Origin: Paenalicyclobacillus mengziensis
Lineage (GTDB): Bacteria > Bacillota > Bacilli > Alicyclobacillales > Alicyclobacillaceae
NCBI RefSeq assembly: GCF_017298635.1
Contig: NZ_CP071182.1
Coordinates: 3,262,001-3,326,000 of the forward strand
Length of the DNA stretch: 64,000 bases
Direction of reading: 5' to 3'
Shown piece by piece: positions 22,885 to 63,520 of this stretch (the stretch's first letter is position 1; every line of letters begins with the position of its first letter). A model generated the notes under the pieces. It did not search any database. It was not told the origin of the DNA and saw only the letters and a program-made list of their open reading frames with translations. The position numbers were made by a program, and so were the translations under genes.

Positions 22885-23339
22885 CGCGTTATTGGCGGTC
22901 AACCCAGTGAACTGAGTGGGACAATAAGGAATAACGCGCTGCCGAAGCGTTAATGGGCCTCAACCCAGGCTGACCCGCACGGGATAACGAGTTGTAAACG
23001 CGTAAAGCCTTTAAAGTGGATAAATAACGCTTTGTGAAAGCGTTATTCCGATCCGTTTCAAACAATAACGCGCCAAGAGCGCGTTATTTTCCACTGAACC
23101 CGCTTGAAGCATGTTCAATAACGCGTTCACAGCTCGTTATGCACGGAGCCCCGGGGAAAGGACAAAGAAGGACAAAGAAGACCAGGGAAAGCACAAGGAA
23201 TACTCAGGAAAACTCAACGGCGATCCGGAGAAAGCCATCGGGGGCACACGGCAATCACGAGATGAACAGGGCAACCTTTCTTCTCTTAAACTGCTGGGGG
23301 TTTCTCGACAGTCTGACAGCCCGGCGATGCCGGGCTGTC
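22885..23339 (-). repeat. Palindrome array A (non-coding, about 450 bases)
   Basis: Series of AATAACGC...GCGTTATT palindromes at 22930-22953, 23023-23047, 23064-23088 and 23117-23140, plus half sites at 22885-22893 and 22984-22989. They are spaced 40-90 bases apart. Read on the minus strand the region begins with a GC hairpin (23339-23315) and TCGAGAAACCCCC (23308-23296) and ends with CAGCGCGTTATTC. The same motifs in the same order occur on the plus strand at 43539-43840. Also contains a tandem GGACAAAGAA (about 23160-23180). No credible gene in 22748-23393. Confidence 0.85.
23315..23339 (-). terminator. GC-rich hairpin after sdhB
   Basis: GACAGCCCGGC / GCCGGGCTGTC with a 3-base loop, 55 bases beyond the sdhB stop. 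No T-run on the minus strand, so it may instead be the first hairpin of palindrome array A. Confidence 0.55.
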
Positions 23340-23393
23340 ACGTCTGTGAAAACTATGGAGATACTGGAACGCAGAGGATGGTCCACAGCTGGT

Positions 23394-24164
23394 TTATTTC
23401 TTGAGCCACGCACCCATTGCATGGTAGGTGACCTGTCTATTCATCGCAGCGATGGAAGTCGTCAAAGGAATCCCCTTCGGACAGACTTCCACGCAGTTTT
23501 GCGCGTTGCCGCACTCATGGATGCCGCCCTCACCCATCAGGGCTTCCAGGCGCTCTTCCCGATGCATCTTCCCAGTCGGGTGTTCATTGAACAACCTTGC
23601 CTGCGAGATTGCAAAAGCACCGACAAACGATGTCCGCTCATTGACATTTGGGCAGGCTTCCACGCACGCACCACAGGTGAAGCAACGGGACAACTCATAG
23701 GCCCACTGCCTATCCACCTCAGGCATGCGTGGTCCAGGACCAAGGTCATACGTTCCATCAATCGGCACCCATGCCTTGACCTTCTTGAGGGCGTCAAACA
23801 TGCGGCTGCGGTCAACAACGAGATCACGAATCACCGGGAACGTACGAGCCGGCCGTAAACGGATGGGCTGTTCGAGCTGGTCGACAAGGGATGTACACGC
23901 CTGGCGGGGCTTGCCGTTGATGACCATCATACAGGCACCACAAATCTCTTCCAGACAATTCATTTCCCATGTCACAGGCGCAACGTGGTTGCCATGTTTG
24001 TCGACAGGATTACGTTGAATCTCCATCAGACAAGCAATGACGTTCATGCCATTCACGTACGGAACCTCGAACTCCTGAGTATACCGTTGGCTGTTTGGAT
24101 TGTCCTGGCGTTCGATAATCAACTGAACCGTCTTCTTTGCCGTTTGCGTCGCTGTAGCACTCAC
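23394..24164 (-). CDS. sdhB: Succinate dehydrogenase iron-sulfur subunit
   Basis: Carries the three Fe-S clusters between SdhA and the quinone. 256 residues. 2Fe-2S ligands in EICGACMMVINGKPRQAC, then CFTCGACVEACPNV and CVEVCPKG for the 4Fe-4S and 3Fe-4S clusters. The GTG start overlaps the sdhA stop as GTGA, so the two are translationally coupled. Third gene of sdhCAB, as in B. subtilis. Confidence 0.97.
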   Translation of the reverse strand: MSATATQTAKKTVQLIIERQDNPNSQRYTQEFEVPYVNGMNVIACLMEIQRNPVDKHGNHVAPVTWEMNCLEEICGACMMVINGKPRQACTSLVDQLEQPIRLRPARTFPVIRDLVVDRSRMFDALKKVKAWVPIDGTYDLGPGPRMPEVDRQWAYELSRCFTCGACVEACPNVNERTSFVGAFAISQARLFNEHPTGKMHREERLEALMGEGGIHECGNAQNCVEVCPKGIPLTTSIAAMNRQVTYHAMGAWLKK

Positions 24165-25918
24165 GATACGCTCGCCTCCTTGGCAACGGCATAGTTGCGC
24201 TTGCGTGGTGGAATCAGGGAAACGTCAACCTCTTCATACTCAATCTTCGGACCTTCAGGCGTCCAGGTGGCAATTGTGCTCTTGAGGAACCGTTCATCAT
24301 TGCGTTCTGGGAAATCCGGCTTGTAGTGAGCGCCGCGGCTTTCATCTCGAAGCAGTGCGCCAACCGTGATGGCTTCGGCCATCTGCAGCATGTTCCAAAG
24401 ATGACGAGTAAATTGCGCCATTTGATTTTCCCAGCGCGACTTGTCTGCCATACCAATGTGCTTGTAGCGCTCCATCAACTCGCGAATCTTGACCTGGGTC
24501 TCCTGCAAGCGGTCATTGTAGCGAACCACGGTGACATTGTCCGTCATCAGTTTACCCAGTTCGCGGTGCAACTGGTACGGGTTTTCGTTGCCTTCCATAC
24601 GCAGGATGGCTTCAAACTTTTCCTCCTCTTCCTTAACACGGTTTTCGTACATTGCCGCAGGAAGGTCATCGCAGGACTTTTTCATGCCCTTGATGTAGTT
24701 GACTGCATTCGGTCCGGCAATCATGCCGCCGTAAATACACGACAGGAGTGAGTTTGCGCCAAGGCGATTCGCGCCGTGATACTGGAACTCTGCCTCACCT
24801 GCTGCAAACAAGCCGGGTATATTCGTCATCTGGTTGATATCTACCCAAAGACCACCCATGCTGTAGTGCATGCCTGGGAAGATGCGCATCGGCACCTTAC
24901 GCGGGTCGTCACCAACAAACTTCTCGTAGATATCGAGGATGTTCCCGAGCTTGACGTTCAAGACGTCTGCAGGCATATGAGACAAGTCAAGGTAAACCTG
25001 ATTCTGGCCATCGATACCAAGCCCCATCTCCACGCAGACCTTGAAAATCGCCCGCGTTGCGACGTCGCGTGGTACTAAGTTACCGTACTCAGGATACATC
25101 TCTTCAAGGAAGTACCAAGGTTTGCCGTCCTTGTACGTCCAGACTCGTCCACCTTCTCCACGAGCGGATTCAGACATCAGGCGCAGTTTGTCGTCTCCAG
25201 GAATCGCGGTCGGGTGAACCTGAATCATCTCCGGATTCCCGTAAAATACGCCTTGCTGATAGAGGATGGATGCCGCCGATCCGGTATTGATCATGGAGTT
25301 GGTGCTCTTGCCGAAGATCATGCCGAGACCGCCCGTGCACATTACCACTGCGTCAGCACGGAACGATTTAATTTCCATCGAACGCAAATCCTGCGCGACA
25401 ACGCCGCGACAAGCACCTTCGTCGTCCAGAATAGCACCCAGGAAATCCCAGCCCTCGTATTTCTGTACCAGGCCAGCAACCTCATGCCGACGAACCTGCT
25501 CATCGAGTGCGTACAACAACTGTTGCCCTGTTGAAGCGCCAGCAAACGCGGTTCGGTGATGTTTGGTACCGCCAAAACGTCGGAAGTCGAGCAACCCCTC
25601 AGGGGTTCTGTTGAACATAACGCCCATACGGTCAAGCAAGTGAATGATACCCGGAGCTGCTTCACACATTCCGAGTACCTGTTTTTGATTCGCGAGAAAA
25701 TCGCCACCATAGATGGTGTCATCGAAGTGTTCCCAAGGAGAGTCACCTTCACCCTTGGTATTAACAGCGCCATTAATACCGCCTTGTGCGCAGACCGAAT
25801 GAGAACGCTTCACAGGTACGAGAGAAAACAGGTCGACCGGGATGCCGGCTTCAGCTATCTTGATGGTTGTCATAAGGCCGGCTAAACCGCCTCCGACCAC
25901 GATGATGCGTTGGCTCAT
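24161..25918 (-). CDS. sdhA: Succinate dehydrogenase flavoprotein subunit
   Basis: Oxidises succinate to fumarate with covalently bound FAD. FAD-binding GGGLAGLMTTIKIAEAG at the N-terminus, SHSVCAQGGINGAV with the flavin-linking histidine region, HPTAIPGDDKLRLMSESARGEGG active-site region and GANRLGANSLLSCIYGG near residue 390. I take the ATG at 25918 (585 residues), which has AAGGAGGGGA about seven bases upstream; the longer frame to 25981 precedes that site. Confidence 0.98.
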   Translation of the reverse strand: MSQRIIVVGGGLAGLMTTIKIAEAGIPVDLFSLVPVKRSHSVCAQGGINGAVNTKGEGDSPWEHFDDTIYGGDFLANQKQVLGMCEAAPGIIHLLDRMGVMFNRTPEGLLDFRRFGGTKHHRTAFAGASTGQQLLYALDEQVRRHEVAGLVQKYEGWDFLGAILDDEGACRGVVAQDLRSMEIKSFRADAVVMCTGGLGMIFGKSTNSMINTGSAASILYQQGVFYGNPEMIQVHPTAIPGDDKLRLMSESARGEGGRVWTYKDGKPWYFLEEMYPEYGNLVPRDVATRAIFKVCVEMGLGIDGQNQVYLDLSHMPADVLNVKLGNILDIYEKFVGDDPRKVPMRIFPGMHYSMGGLWVDINQMTNIPGLFAAGEAEFQYHGANRLGANSLLSCIYGGMIAGPNAVNYIKGMKKSCDDLPAAMYENRVKEEEEKFEAILRMEGNENPYQLHRELGKLMTDNVTVVRYNDRLQETQVKIRELMERYKHIGMADKSRWENQMAQFTRHLWNMLQMAEAITVGALLRDESRGAHYKPDFPERNDERFLKSTIATWTPEGPKIEYEEVDVSLIPPRKRNYAVAKEASVS

Positions 25919-25931
25919 TTGCGTCCCCTCC

Positions 25932-26555
25932 TTATGCAGCGTGTGTGAATGCGATGAGTGCGTCAATGCCGATGCCCGCAAGCGCGATAAACACGATCAT
26001 CGTCACGTATGCGGTAATTCGTTGTGCCCTAGCGCCCACCGTAATACCCCAGTGGACGAAAAATGACCAGAGGCCGTTGGAGAAGTGGAAGGTTGCTGCC
26101 ACGACACCAATCACCATAAACCAGAAGTACGCTGGGTTACTGACCAACTCGTGCACCATTTCAAATGTAGGTGCTTTGCCAGAGAAACGAGTCGTCCACA
26201 GATGAAAAATGATGAACACGAACGTGATAATGCCTGTGATCCGTTGAATCACGAACAACACGTTCCGAGTCCAGGAGTACTGCCCCGCGTTGTATCCGGA
26301 TGTAAACGCTACGTACAGTCCATACACGCCGTGATAAACCAGAGGCAAGAAAATGAAAAAGAACTCAATAAAGTGTAGGAGCGGAATGTGCTGGATGGTA
26401 TCGACAGCGTTGTTGTACGAAACCGCCCCGTTCGGTGTTGTCGCCATGGCGTTGGTAAATAGATGTTCCAACAGGAATAACCCGACTGGAATGACGCCCG
26501 CCAAGGTGTGTAAACGGCGTAGCAAGAAATCTGAACTCTGCTGTGCTTGCGCCAC
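25932..26555 (-). CDS. sdhC: Succinate dehydrogenase cytochrome b558 subunit
   Basis: Di-haem membrane anchor of Bacillus-type SQR. 207 residues with five hydrophobic helices; haem-ligand histidines are expected among RRLHTLAGV, LLEHLF, YHGVYGLY, FHLWTTRF and FHFSNGLW, all visible in or near helices. GTG at 26555 has GGGAGG about eight bases upstream; the open frame to 26687 lacks a ribosome site and homology. First gene of sdhCAB. Confidence 0.95.
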   Translation of the reverse strand: MAQAQQSSDFLLRRLHTLAGVIPVGLFLLEHLFTNAMATTPNGAVSYNNAVDTIQHIPLLHFIEFFFIFLPLVYHGVYGLYVAFTSGYNAGQYSWTRNVLFVIQRITGIITFVFIIFHLWTTRFSGKAPTFEMVHELVSNPAYFWFMVIGVVAATFHFSNGLWSFFVHWGITVGARAQRITAYVTMIVFIALAGIGIDALIAFTHAA

Positions 26556-26658
26556 GCGTGTGCCTCCCTTCAATGTGCCACCTGCTCTGAACTGATTACA
26601 TATGTAACGGCAGTCGCAACCGACTGCCATCCGAGTAGGGACTCGTTTTCCATAACAA

Positions 26659-26687
26659 ATTGTAATAGTTGCATTTGCAAGCGTCAA
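26659..26687 (-). promoter_or_regulatory. SigA-type promoter of sdhCAB
   Basis: TTGACG at 26687-26682 and TACAAT at 26664-26659 on the minus strand with 17 bases between, about 100 bases before the sdhC start. Confidence 0.75.
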
Positions 26688-41928: not shown

Positions 41929-42960
41929 TTAGGCGATACCAAGTATCCGGCAACCTTCATTTTTGATGTTGATTGCGGCGTTTTCGTCCCTGTCTAATTC
42001 GGCACCGCAATGAGAGCATGTCCAAGTCCGATCTGCCAATGTGAGTTTTTTATTCTCCTTTTGGCAGAATCGACACCGCTTGCTGGATGGGAACCATTGA
42101 TCAATCACAATAAGCTGCTTTCCTTCCTCGGCAAGCTTATATGCCAAAAAGGTTTTTAGCATCCCAAACCCATTGTCATTTGTGGACTTTGCCAAACGGA
42201 GTCCTTGTGCCATTCCTCGCATATTTAAGTCTTCTATCGCAACAGCTGTGTGGGCATTGGCTATCTGCCTTGAGAGTTTATGCAAGAAGTCTTTGCGTTG
42301 GTTGGCTACTTTTTCGTGCAGTTTGGCTACTTTAAGGCGTTGCTTTTCACGGTTCTGACTGCCTTTTTTACGTTTGGATAATTTACGTTGTGCCCTTTTC
42401 AGTTTCGCCTCTGCTTGACGATAGAATTTTGGATAATCAGCATGGTTTCCTTGGCTATCAACAAACAACGACTTGGACGAATAATCCAAACCGAACACAG
42501 TTTCTGTTGTTGGTGCTACTGGCTTAATGTGCGCTTCGTACTCAACCAATACGGAAACATAATATTTACCCGTTGGTGTTTTGCTGTCCATTAACCGAAT
42601 CGTGCCACCTTGATTGTTCGTCGTATAGGACTTCTTATCGTGATGCTTGCTTTTGAACTTCGGAAAGCCTACGGACTGATCTCGGAAGAAATTCCGATAA
42701 GCCGTCTGCAAATGGAGCTGTGCATTTGCCAGCGCCAAACTATCCACTTCTTTCAGCCATTCAAACTCTTTTTTGAAATCGGCCGGAAGTAAATATTTCT
42801 GTTGCTTCAGTGCTTCTTTGTCATCCTTGAATTGCTCATAGGTTTCCTTGCGATTCGCAAGCATTCGGTTATAGACAAAACGTACACAGCCAAACGTTTT
42901 ATTGATGAGAATTTCTTGTTCAGCACTCGGATATATTCGATATTTGAATGCTTTCTTCAT
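41929..42960 (-). CDS. tnpB: TnpB RNA-guided nuclease of the IS605 element, internally shortened
   Basis: 343 residues. N-terminal MKKAFKYRIYPSAEQEILIN, RuvC residues D in GLDYSSKSLF (about 177), E in AIEDLNMRGM (about 252) and D in DRDENAAINI (about 328), and a zinc ribbon CRFC/CSHC. All catalytic residues are present. Between TTNNQGGTIRLMD and SKTPTGKYYVSV I miss about 30 residues that TnpB proteins of this group normally have (the GRVKLPKLGWVK-like strand region), so this copy may be impaired; that comparison is from memory of the family. Confidence 0.88.
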   Translation of the reverse strand: MKKAFKYRIYPSAEQEILINKTFGCVRFVYNRMLANRKETYEQFKDDKEALKQQKYLLPADFKKEFEWLKEVDSLALANAQLHLQTAYRNFFRDQSVGFPKFKSKHHDKKSYTTNNQGGTIRLMDSKTPTGKYYVSVLVEYEAHIKPVAPTTETVFGLDYSSKSLFVDSQGNHADYPKFYRQAEAKLKRAQRKLSKRKKGSQNREKQRLKVAKLHEKVANQRKDFLHKLSRQIANAHTAVAIEDLNMRGMAQGLRLAKSTNDNGFGMLKTFLAYKLAEEGKQLIVIDQWFPSSKRCRFCQKENKKLTLADRTWTCSHCGAELDRDENAAINIKNEGCRILGIA

Positions 42961-43331
42961 ATTTTCTCACCTTGACTTTCAATATAACGTCTGACGACTT
43001 CAATCGGCGCACCGCCTGTTGTGAGCAAGCAGAAACTTCTTGACCAGAAATATTCTTTCCATAGCGATTTTCTTATGATGGGATATTCTTTTTTGATGAG
43101 ACGTGATGATGCGCTCTTATAGGCATTGATGAACTTCGACAATTCACTGTTCGGCTGTGCTTTGAACAAAATATGAACGTGATCTTTGTCGTGATTCCAT
43201 TCCTGCAATGCAACATTGTAACTCGGTGCAATATACTCGAATATTTCTTTCAGACGATTCGATATTTTATCGTCAACGACTTTTCGACGGTACTTTATCA
43301 CTAAGACGAGGTGATAGTACATCAAGAACAC
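42957..43331 (-). CDS. tnpA: TnpA Y1 transposase of the IS605 element
   Basis: 124 residues. HUH motif in KDHVHILF (about residue 50) and catalytic tyrosine in RRYIESQG (about 117). The frame opens with a GTG at 43331 reading VFLMYYHLV. Family members normally start some eight residues earlier with DNNxHS; those codons are present here (GAC AAT AAT AAT CAT TCA) but are preceded by GTG GAA TGA, so the third codon seems to have become a stop. The overlap with tnpB is four bases. Activity is uncertain. Confidence 0.9.
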   Translation of the reverse strand: MFLMYYHLVLVIKYRRKVVDDKISNRLKEIFEYIAPSYNVALQEWNHDKDHVHILFKAQPNSELSKFINAYKSASSRLIKKEYPIIRKSLWKEYFWSRSFCLLTTGGAPIEVVRRYIESQGEKI

Positions 43332-43538: not shown

Positions 43539-43840
43539 CCGTCTCAAATGAGACGGCTGACACTTTCGAGAAACCCCCGGGAGTCTGTTGTGAACGACAG
43601 GTAGCCCGTTTCCGTTACCCTCGGCGTTACCCTACCCTCGCACGTTTGCGCCTGATGGCTTTCATGGTTAACGAGCTAAGAAAGCGTTACTCAAATTACT
43701 TGAAACTAGGTTCCGTGGAAATAACGCTTTCACAAAGCGTGATTTGTCCACGTTGGGAACTTATAGCGCGTCTAGAACTCGTTTCAGTGCTGGACCGGCT
43801 GGACTGAGGTCAATAACAATTCGACAGCGCGTTATTCTGT
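43539..43840 (+). repeat. Palindrome array B (non-coding), related to array A
   Basis: Plus-strand order: hairpin CCGTCT/AGACGG (43539-43556), TCGAGAAACCCCC (43566-43578), palindrome TTAACG/CGTTAC (43668-43690), AATAACGCTTT-cac-AAAGCGTGATT (43720-43744), ACTCGTTTC (about 43777) and CAGCGCGTTATTC (43825-43837). Array A at 22885-23339 has the same motifs in the same order on the minus strand; one 21-base stretch is identical. Confidence 0.83.
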
Positions 43841-44215
43841 CGTCAGACCGGGTTCATCGGGTTAAACCCCAACAGCGGCGACCTTCTCAGCAGCCACTTC
43901 TTAACACGAATAATCCAGTCATACCTCTTGATGGGTTACAATTTTTATGAAAACACCTAGAGGTGATAGCATGTTTCGCTCATCTGAAAGTAGCCAATCG
44001 GAGTATGAAAAGAGGCAATTTTCTTCATTTATATGGCGTAAATGTGGCGCAAAGTAACACTTATAAACGCATGAGGAACGTTGACAAAACCCCAAAATTT
44101 GGGGCTTTGTCAACAACCTGACCGTCTTACAAATGAGGCGGGTCTTCTCACTGTGGCCCGTACGTGCGGACTGTTGATAATGAATTGCAGGATTTGCGTG
44201 ATGACGGTTAGAAAA
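43841..44215. other. Intergenic region with a 35-base palindrome
   Basis: No gene I can support. At 44080-44114 is an almost perfect palindrome with arms GTTGACAAA...CCCC and GGGG...TTTGTCAAC, then a weaker GC hairpin near 44120-44144 that may be the wrbA terminator. Confidence 0.7.
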
Positions 44216-46367: not shown

Positions 46368-48259
46368 ATCGGGTAAGAGGGGGTGGCTAACCCCCGTCTT
46401 CCCACACCACCGTACGTACCGTTCGGTATACGGCGGTTCATGTTGTGGAACGAATTGCGTCGTATCGTTCGACTAGGCTCACAAGTCCTTGGTCGCGCCA
46501 GTAGGCGAGACCAAGGGCTTTGTTCGTTTGTGGTGTGTTTGCGAGGCGCCAGTAGCCTTTGCGGGAAGCACTAATGTGCACCGCCCATTCCTCGGGGATG
46601 CCGAGTCTGACGAGATTCCGCCGTTTCGTTTTCGGTTTCTTCCATTGCTTAAGCAGACACATCCTCAGTCGACGACGGATCCACTCATCTAGGTGTTCAA
46701 ACACACTACGTGTTTGAGCGTGTCTGTAGTAGCCAGCCCATCCCCGCAGGTACGCATTTAGCCATTCGAGCCTTTGCATCATCGACTGCCCTCGGCTACG
46801 TGAGGTCAGGGTGCGCACCTTGTCCTTGAAGCGTTTCAGAGACTTTGGTGCGACTCGAATTCGGGGCTGTTTGTGATGCGTGAATGAGAATCCGAGAAAC
46901 TTTCGCCTCCACGGGCGGTCTACCGCGCTCTTTTCCGCGTTAACCTTGAGCTTCAGTCTTTCTTCTACAAATAACCGTAGACTTTCCATAACCCTCTCTC
47001 CGGCGTGACGGCTTTTTACGTACACGTTGCAATCGTCAGCATATCTGACGAAGCGGTGGCCACGTCGCGTCAGTTCTCGGTCCAAGTCATCCAACATAAT
47101 GTTGGCGAGTAATGGACTGAGTGGACCGCCTTGTGGAACGCCCTCTTCGGTAGAGACACATACGCCGTGTTCCATGACACCCGCGTTCAGGTATCCACGA
47201 ATCAGCTTTAGGACGCGCTTGTCCTTTACCTTGCGAGCCACTCTTGCCATGAGCATGTCGTGGTTCACTCGGTCAAAGAACTGAGCTAAGTCCATATCGA
47301 CTACCCAGCGGTATCCTTGCGAGATAAATATCTGTGCTTGGTTTACAGCTTGGTGGGCACTGCGTCCCTGACGGAAGCCATAACTGTACCATGAGAATTC
47401 CGGGTCAAAGATAGGTGTCAGTACTTGCAGAAGTGCCTGTTGGATCAGGCGGTCTAGCACCCCTGGTATCCCTAACATCCTTTTGCTGCCACCGTCTGGT
47501 TTCGGGATTTCGACCCGACGTACCGGCATTGGTTGGTAGGTTCCATGAAGGAGGTCACTTCGGATACGTTGCCAGTTTTCCATCAGGAATGGACGAAGGG
47601 ATTTTATCTCCATTCCGTCGACACCGGCAGCCCCTTTGTTCTTCTCCACACGGCGCAGCGCCGAGAGCAGGTTATCCCGCTCTACTACCTGTTCCATCAG
47701 GTCGATACAACCTTCTTCGCGGGTTGGTTCATTGGGTCGTGCCGAAGAGAAACTCGGCGCTTCCTCAGTCCCCCGTGGATTCACCACTTCCTTCTGAGGA
47801 TAGCTCCCTTGTGGGATATTCGGCTGTCTTTGCTTCTCTCTCGAACTTGCCATGAACAACCCTCACAATCATGTTCAGTCCTTCCCTGCTTGGGCGTCCC
47901 TTTGCAGGTACTACGACCTCTGCTGACTTCTGCCCGTTCAACGTACCCTCTCAGGAACGCTTACCAGCATCGCTGGCGTACCGGGCAGACCTCCCCGGGT
48001 AAGAACGCTGTCTTTCCCTCCATGCACCCGCTCCATTTACTTTCAGCAGTCTTCGGTAGCAAGGGCTTTGTCATGTTTGGCTGACTCACCCAACTGCTGC
48101 TAGCCTCTATTGGAGTTCGTGACCCTCGGGCCGGAGGTTTGCCGCCGCCTTCCTTCAGATTCCACCTCGCGGTGGACACCCTTGGCTTAAGCTAATGGTT
48201 ACTGCTACCTTCACCATTCCGGACTTTCACCGTATAGACAGTGCCCATGCCGGGCGCAC
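46368..48259 (-). mobile_element. Group II intron, class C type
   Basis: 5' end GTGCGCCCGGCATGGG on the minus strand at 48259, 3' end about 46368 (ACCCGAT). Domain V-like hairpin at about 46376-46440 (GGGGGTTAGCCACCCCC and GAACGGTACGTACGGT region). Encodes a reverse transcriptase without endonuclease domain. The 5' end lies directly behind a terminator hairpin (48261-48298), the usual class C target. About 1,892 bases. Confidence 0.85.
46438..47859 (-). CDS. ltrA: Group II intron reverse transcriptase/maturase
   Basis: 473 residues. RT blocks: GAAGVDGMEIKSLRPFL, RRVEIPKPDGGSKRMLGIPG, DPEFSWYSYGFRQGRSAHQA, VVDMDLAQFFDRVNHDMLM, GVPQGGPLSPLLANIMLDDLDREL, and FVRYADDCNVYV with the catalytic YADD at about 283. 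The maturase domain X follows (LNAYLRGWAGYYRHAQTRSVF). No HNH endonuclease at the C-terminus, as in class C introns. Helps the intron splice and retrohome. Intact frame. Confidence 0.95.
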   Translation of the reverse strand: MFMASSREKQRQPNIPQGSYPQKEVVNPRGTEEAPSFSSARPNEPTREEGCIDLMEQVVERDNLLSALRRVEKNKGAAGVDGMEIKSLRPFLMENWQRIRSDLLHGTYQPMPVRRVEIPKPDGGSKRMLGIPGVLDRLIQQALLQVLTPIFDPEFSWYSYGFRQGRSAHQAVNQAQIFISQGYRWVVDMDLAQFFDRVNHDMLMARVARKVKDKRVLKLIRGYLNAGVMEHGVCVSTEEGVPQGGPLSPLLANIMLDDLDRELTRRGHRFVRYADDCNVYVKSRHAGERVMESLRLFVEERLKLKVNAEKSAVDRPWRRKFLGFSFTHHKQPRIRVAPKSLKRFKDKVRTLTSRSRGQSMMQRLEWLNAYLRGWAGYYRHAQTRSVFEHLDEWIRRRLRMCLLKQWKKPKTKRRNLVRLGIPEEWAVHISASRKGYWRLANTPQTNKALGLAYWRDQGLVSLVERYDAIRSTT

Positions 48260-63386: not shown

Positions 63387-63394
63387 AAGACTGC

Positions 63395-63520
63395 CCCTTT
63401 GACTTCCTACGGAGTTAGTTGACGGGCTAGGAATTGGGCCTTCCCTTCCGCAAAAGCGCAGATTCGCCCCAGAAAAGCGTCCCCCGTCTCTCTTTCGAGA
63501 GTTAGGAATATTTGTCCAAT
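63395..63520 (-). ncRNA. c-di-AMP riboswitch (ydaO-yuaA type)
   Basis: On the minus strand upstream of the LysM-NlpC gene: GAGAGACGGGGGACGC, TGGGGCGAATCTGCGC, then GGGAAGGC and CCGTCAACTAACTCCGTAGG. These are the conserved strings of the ydaO motif, which turns off cell-wall hydrolase and osmolyte genes on binding c-di-AMP. The call rests on motif order; no covariance test was done. Confidence 0.88.

Follow-up and report, generated by a model that had tools for sequence, protein, structure and literature searches.

The window, that is, the whole 64,000-nucleotide stretch of DNA analysed, carries two clusters of palindromes, copies A and B, together with an sdh operon, an IS200/IS605 pair, a group II intron and a c-di-AMP riboswitch (Table 1). 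Copy A lies 252 bp past the sdhB stop codon. Copy B lacks P2 and spacer s2, which amounts to the loss of one 40-bp period, and its sites start at 43667, 43720, 43762 (decayed) and 43812. The initial annotation took both clusters to be real, and counts of AATAACGCN9GCGTTATT (up to three mismatches) bear this out: six lie in the window against a shuffle mean of 0.12, and 0 of 100 shuffles reached six.

Table 1 Positions of arrays, sites and neighbouring features in the window (G000, source genome)
Feature	Position	Strand	Remarks
Copy A	22930..23141	-	Complete five-site array, P1 to P5 along the minus strand; match to model R1 at G000:C1:3284930-3285140, E 2.5e-39
Copy A, P5	22930..22954	-	ATTAACGCTTCGGCAGCGCGTTATT
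Copy A, P4	22983..23007	-	CTTTACGCGTTTACAACTCGTTATC; decayed, register kept (53 bp from 22930, 40 bp from 23023)
Copy A, P3	23023..23047	-	AATAACGCTTTCACAAAGCGTTATT
Copy A, P2	23064..23088	-	AATAACGCGCTCTTGGCGCGTTATT; arms perfect
Copy A, P1	23117..23141	-	CATAACGAGCTGTGAACGCGTTATT
GC hairpin and TCGAGAAACCCCC by copy A	23296..23341	-	Counterpart by copy B at 43539-43580
sdh operon	23394..26687	-	Fer2_3 iron-sulphur, FAD flavoprotein and Sdh_cyt subunits (Pfam); 3' end toward copy A
IS200/IS605 pair	41929-43331		tnpA (Y1_Tnp) and tnpB; adjoins copy B
Copy B	43667..43836	+	Degenerate array P1-P3-P4-P5, spacings 53, 42, 50, read against the family consensus
Copy B, P3-like site	43720..43744	+	AATAACGCTTTCACAAAGCGTGATT
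Copy B, P5	43812..43836	+	AATAACAATTCGACAGCGCGTTATT
Hairpin TTGACAAAGCCCC..GGGGCTTTGTCAAC	44081-44115		Probably of the intrinsic terminator type; recurs beside arrays at loci L010 and L020
Group II intron	46438-48176	-	Matches to D1D4 RNA; ORF for a reverse transcriptase/maturase
c-di-AMP riboswitch	63389-63518		

A shared flank had also been described for the two copies. The GC hairpin and CGAGAAACCCCC are indeed present at both, but the flank lies outside the family: within 864 kb of the source genome, the GC hairpin and TCGAGAAACCCCC co-occur at A and B only. We therefore rejected the hairpin and TCGAGAAACCCCC as part of the element and regard them as local flank. GAGAAACCCCC has the same restriction in the 864 kb and is thus not a family component.

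Architecture of the array family

Both arrays exist, but a count of two proved far too low. A sequence-only model gave 157 strand matches in the source genome (G000), and those listed resolve into at least 96 distinct arrays, which is a lower bound because scoring was limited to 150 candidates. Raw totals of 159 and 184 matches were discarded as locus counts because palindromic arrays are counted on both strands. Among the listed model matches, none lay on the small contig. The suggestion of a dispersed element was thus well founded, with copies genome-wide, and the search of relatives that had been proposed found arrays to be abundant in one congener (G002) and present in other families. The exact pattern AATAACGCN9GCGTTATT occurs 105 times in G000 (reversed-pattern control, 0), 113 times in G002, not at all in a second congener (G001) and once in G021, which belongs to another genus of the same family. 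An exact-pattern scan of a genome contig collection returned two unrelated single matches and nothing else.

The canonical element is oriented, 211 bp long and composed of five 25-bp palindromes with start-to-start distances of 53-40-40-53, and this five-site layout is the most frequent arrangement. Tandem versions repeat with a period of 133 bp (53+40+40). Sequence between palindromes had been said to differ, which holds between A and B; however, 41 non-redundant elements can be aligned across the 211 bp in a single orientation, with a recognisable spacer consensus and tightly fixed spacer lengths. With rare exceptions, the distance from one site to the next is 40/41 or 53 bp in 864 kb of G000 and 320 kb of G002, and 226 of 229 neighbour spacings in G000 fall within 39-42 or 50-53 bp. 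Spacings of 40, 50/51 and 61/62 bp, successive steps of about one helical turn, replace one another in the two species, and 53 bp occurs as well. The conserved unit consists of DNA half-sites, TARCG-N11-CGYTA.

Every site can fold as a hairpin and the arrays sit at gene 3' ends, as might be expected of a structured non-coding RNA or an RNA hairpin (an mRNA 3' stabiliser or bidirectional terminator) acting post-transcription, which was one of the two options first raised for these sequences. The arms gave no sign of this. Over the five stems, 89.7% of arm pairs are paired, equal to the shuffled mean of 89.7%, and the covariation score of 0.084 compares with 0.082 for shuffled alignments, 136 of 500 of which scored as high or higher; compensatory change is no more frequent than in shuffles. 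Mispaired positions are G-U in 181 cases and A-C in 165, that is, equally common, and inner stem positions of P1, P3 and P4 are often unpaired. At position 5, A or G varies independently of T or C at the partner position (for P3, AT 21, AC 9, GT 8 and GC 3), which is accounted for if the half-sites TARCG and CGYTA are read independently of each other; an RNA helix would favour G-U and compensated pairs. Rfam gave no match at the arrays, and T-run terminators beside them are neither enriched nor depleted. The arrays are not an RNA family, the RNA alternative is mostly refuted, and we consider it very improbable. The second option, a protein-binding array, is favoured by the independent variation of half-sites, by spacing steps of a helical turn and by the retention of half-sites at orthologous loci described below.

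Position, conservation and spread

Genes were called with a simple hexamer gene caller, and arrays with at least three sites were counted; none of these overlapped a called gene. Arrays are intergenic and lie close against gene 3' ends, with 22 in convergent, 31 in tandem and one in a divergent gap of G000. Divergent gaps account for 1 of 54 arrays versus 41 of 122 other long gaps (p = 6e-7), and among the remaining, non-divergent gaps, convergent ones are enriched (p = 0.02). An array follows the 5S gene of six rRNA operons in G000, of both in G002 and of all five in G021; in G153, 0 of 12 rrn operons had an array downstream. Six identical copies (L060, L063, L064, L068, L078 and L087) were considered as products of recent transposition and rejected, being rrn operon ends that are alike along with their operons. 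Of 62 gene ends that face arrays, 5 have an intrinsic terminator (expectation 7.5), and the idea that arrays replace such terminators was dropped, the apparent depletion having vanished once lengths were matched. Arrays thus do not substitute for intrinsic terminators, and any role in termination would be conjectural.

Of the 96 arrays listed for G000, 44 lie in the chromosome quarter proximal to the inferred origin. Such enrichment would suit a chromosome-scale organiser (a nucleoid-occlusion, condensin-loading or macrodomain site) that gene ends merely tolerate, as would the restriction to the chromosome among matches listed and the roughly 100 arrays and 500 sites per chromosome, which imply an abundant protein. 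However, the enrichment may follow from highly expressed genes near the origin, the origin position, near 0.3 Mb, was itself deduced from sampled GC skew and gene strand, and the link to rrn ends in three species fits a role in transcription at least as well. We regard an organiser of this kind as unlikely.

G002 is largely collinear with G000, in inverted order. Of the 17 G000 arrays with both flanks aligned to G002, 15 have at least three sites in the orthologous gap, among them copy A, for which the G002 gap after sdhB has nine sites. Some G002 stretches had been picked for their own palindromes; synteny was the sole basis for picking those at about C1:4.03-4.25 Mb and 3.4-3.6 Mb. In a control based on gaps, G002 had an array in 13 of 14 orthologous gaps where G000 has one and in 4 of 50 where it has none (Fisher p = 2.4e-9). 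Between orthologous loci, half-sites are 84-96% identical (about 90%) and spacers 32-55% (about 43%); the means for non-orthologous pairs are 89% and 38%, so half-site identity is common to all copies and the spacers keep a weak trace of shared position. When orientation was judged by spacer identity, 9 of 12 pairs matched best the same way round, one tied and two matched best when flipped.

Absence from G001 is countered by four-site arrays (about 51-61-51) in two orthologous gaps, with diverged half-sites; as these are two loci found with loosened matching, they are suggestive only. Other repeats were seen in the same genomes. At G001 C86:129102-129531 and at locus 3 (L184) there are 51-bp tandem repeats with GGAACTGAGTTCC palindromes, one of them at an orthologous gap where G000 and G002 have an array. 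Another dispersed palindrome, CTTACGCACCCACGGTGCGTAAG, forms tandem runs adjoining arrays at G002 C1:4208620-4209030 and in other G002 gaps (L187), and a weaker version lies in L054 near 2355-2470. An unrelated repeat at L054:19445-19701 (G000 C1:149445-149701) has dozens of matches in G002, often in tandem at 320-460 bp.

Shared spacers imply common descent of the elements and hence spread at some time. Together with the common orientation, they point to dispersal from a common source, as would be left by a mobile element, selfish or non-autonomous and akin to REPs, BIMEs or MITEs, whose sites bind a transposase and whose insertion is tolerated in 3' gaps. A G002 subfamily alike over 370-430 bp and one orthologous gap of 76 bp that is cleanly free of an array, and in which no target duplication could be defined, are in keeping with such an element, and promoter avoidance also fits neutral insertion. 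On the other hand, dispersed G000 copies are at most about 78% identical in their longest alignments (rrn and tandem copies aside); these alignments gave no sign of recent movement, and the near-identical dispersed copies expected of MITEs were not found. The conservation at 15 of 17 orthologous positions and the retention of half-sites while spacers decay also argue against it. A RAYT search (NF047646) yielded nothing above cut-off in seven genomes, with a positive E. coli control, and a REPtron/RAYT link was rejected on this ground. Viral contigs contained no site pairs at 50-53 spacing (one contig had pairs at 39-41), and two array queries found no match in plasmids. A mobile element therefore seems to us a rather unlikely explanation. 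Separately, a transposase-like gene lies between the second and third sites of one G002 array (C1:2400405-2402482, L105).

Beyond the genus, four-site 50/51-62-50/51 arrays of TARCG-N11-CGYTA occur in G021 and in members of two families of the same class, f5 and f28. The four-site geometry recurs with other cores in G021, G163, G186 and G384, the cores being lineage-specific (for example, TAACGGAAAANTTTTCCGTTA in G186). In a phylum-wide sample, the phased two-site pattern was found in 4 of 398 genomes, namely G000 and three members of f5, and the reversed control in none; judged by gene content, f5 is probably Paenibacillus-like and the host lineage Alicyclobacillus-like. Given this patchy distribution, the function of the arrays is not essential in Bacilli. 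The 51-52 bp spacers of G021 arrays (L113, L119, L122, L125 and L137) carry ATTATGTAAAC, which is similar in appearance to one arm of dif in Firmicutes, and TTATGTAAAC in G021 spacers is reminiscent of a Xer half-site.

A possible boundary role and comparison with known systems

We consider it probable that the arrays are protein-binding sites, which would be occupied cooperatively. In each 21-25 bp palindrome the TARCG and CGYTA half-sites stand 11 bp apart, and the presumed ligand is a dimer of a single, abundant chromosomal protein. As spacings differ by whole helical turns, dimers on the four or five sites would keep a constant rotation relative to one another, and their binding would be cooperative. 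The Myb/RsfA family, guessed as the binder, is near-universal and does not track the arrays, so its phyletic pattern was uninformative and we set it aside.

Arrays are retained at transcription-unit 3' ends, such as those of rRNA operons, the sdh operon and convergent gene pairs, and there a filled array would most plausibly form an orientation-independent boundary that blocks read-through, organises supercoils where transcription ends, or both, much as gyrase-binding BIMEs or the Reb1/TTF-I roadblocks of eukaryotes do. Taken as a whole, the explanation of cooperative protein-binding arrays acting as boundaries at transcription-unit ends has, in our judgement, about an even chance of being right; the boundary or topological role itself we propose tentatively. 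It is possible, and we suggest it with still more reserve, that they constitute an undescribed class of bacterial boundary element, in which helically phased four- to five-site arrays have long stayed put at particular gene ends of Bacilli resembling Alicyclobacillus and Paenibacillus, their cores turning over between lineages together with a co-evolving abundant binding protein.

As boundary sites, the arrays would represent a system of gene-end insulation or topology in Bacilli, and their diverged cores at fixed positions would offer a natural series for following joint change in a DNA-binding protein and its hundreds of sites. Seen purely as repeats, the arrays still look out of the ordinary, with orthologous positions kept and spacers decaying. 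We found no account of such arrays in open-access full text, although such an absence is weak evidence.

Reb1 sites and the Sal boxes of TTF-I, the eukaryotic roadblock terminators, are likewise protein sites in repeated copies, located past rRNA genes and gene ends. The resemblance of our arrays to these is a functional analogy only.

Among bacterial repeats, the Firmicutes stem-loop families (bcr1, Bhal-1 and others; PMC2267715) are also palindromic repeats dispersed through intergenic DNA of Bacilli, about 70-170 bp in length. Those families, however, were defined through stem-loop folding. Neither that survey nor the GTAG/CGTC survey (PMC3733652) mentions Alicyclobacillus, Paenibacillus or Brevibacillus.

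REP sequences and BIMEs of enterobacteria and pseudomonads (PMC1525189, PMC2817692), in particular the gyrase-binding BIME-2, share with the arrays palindromic units, regular arrangement, high copy number and a place in gaps by gene 3' ends, and in one case an array is interrupted by a transposase gene. In contrast to REPs, the arrays have no GTAG/CGTC tag at site ends (41 aligned elements), no RAYT above cut-off (seven genomes) and no complementary arm mutations, pair counts being those of shuffles. They differ from REPs and BIMEs alike in having a fixed, oriented four- to five-site unit with helical spacing classes, in keeping their position between species and in belonging to another branch of bacteria. 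With regularly spaced, intergenic palindromic units (53-40-40-53), as BIMEs have, the arrays resemble BIMEs and would also be most like them in their working; they are not REPs.
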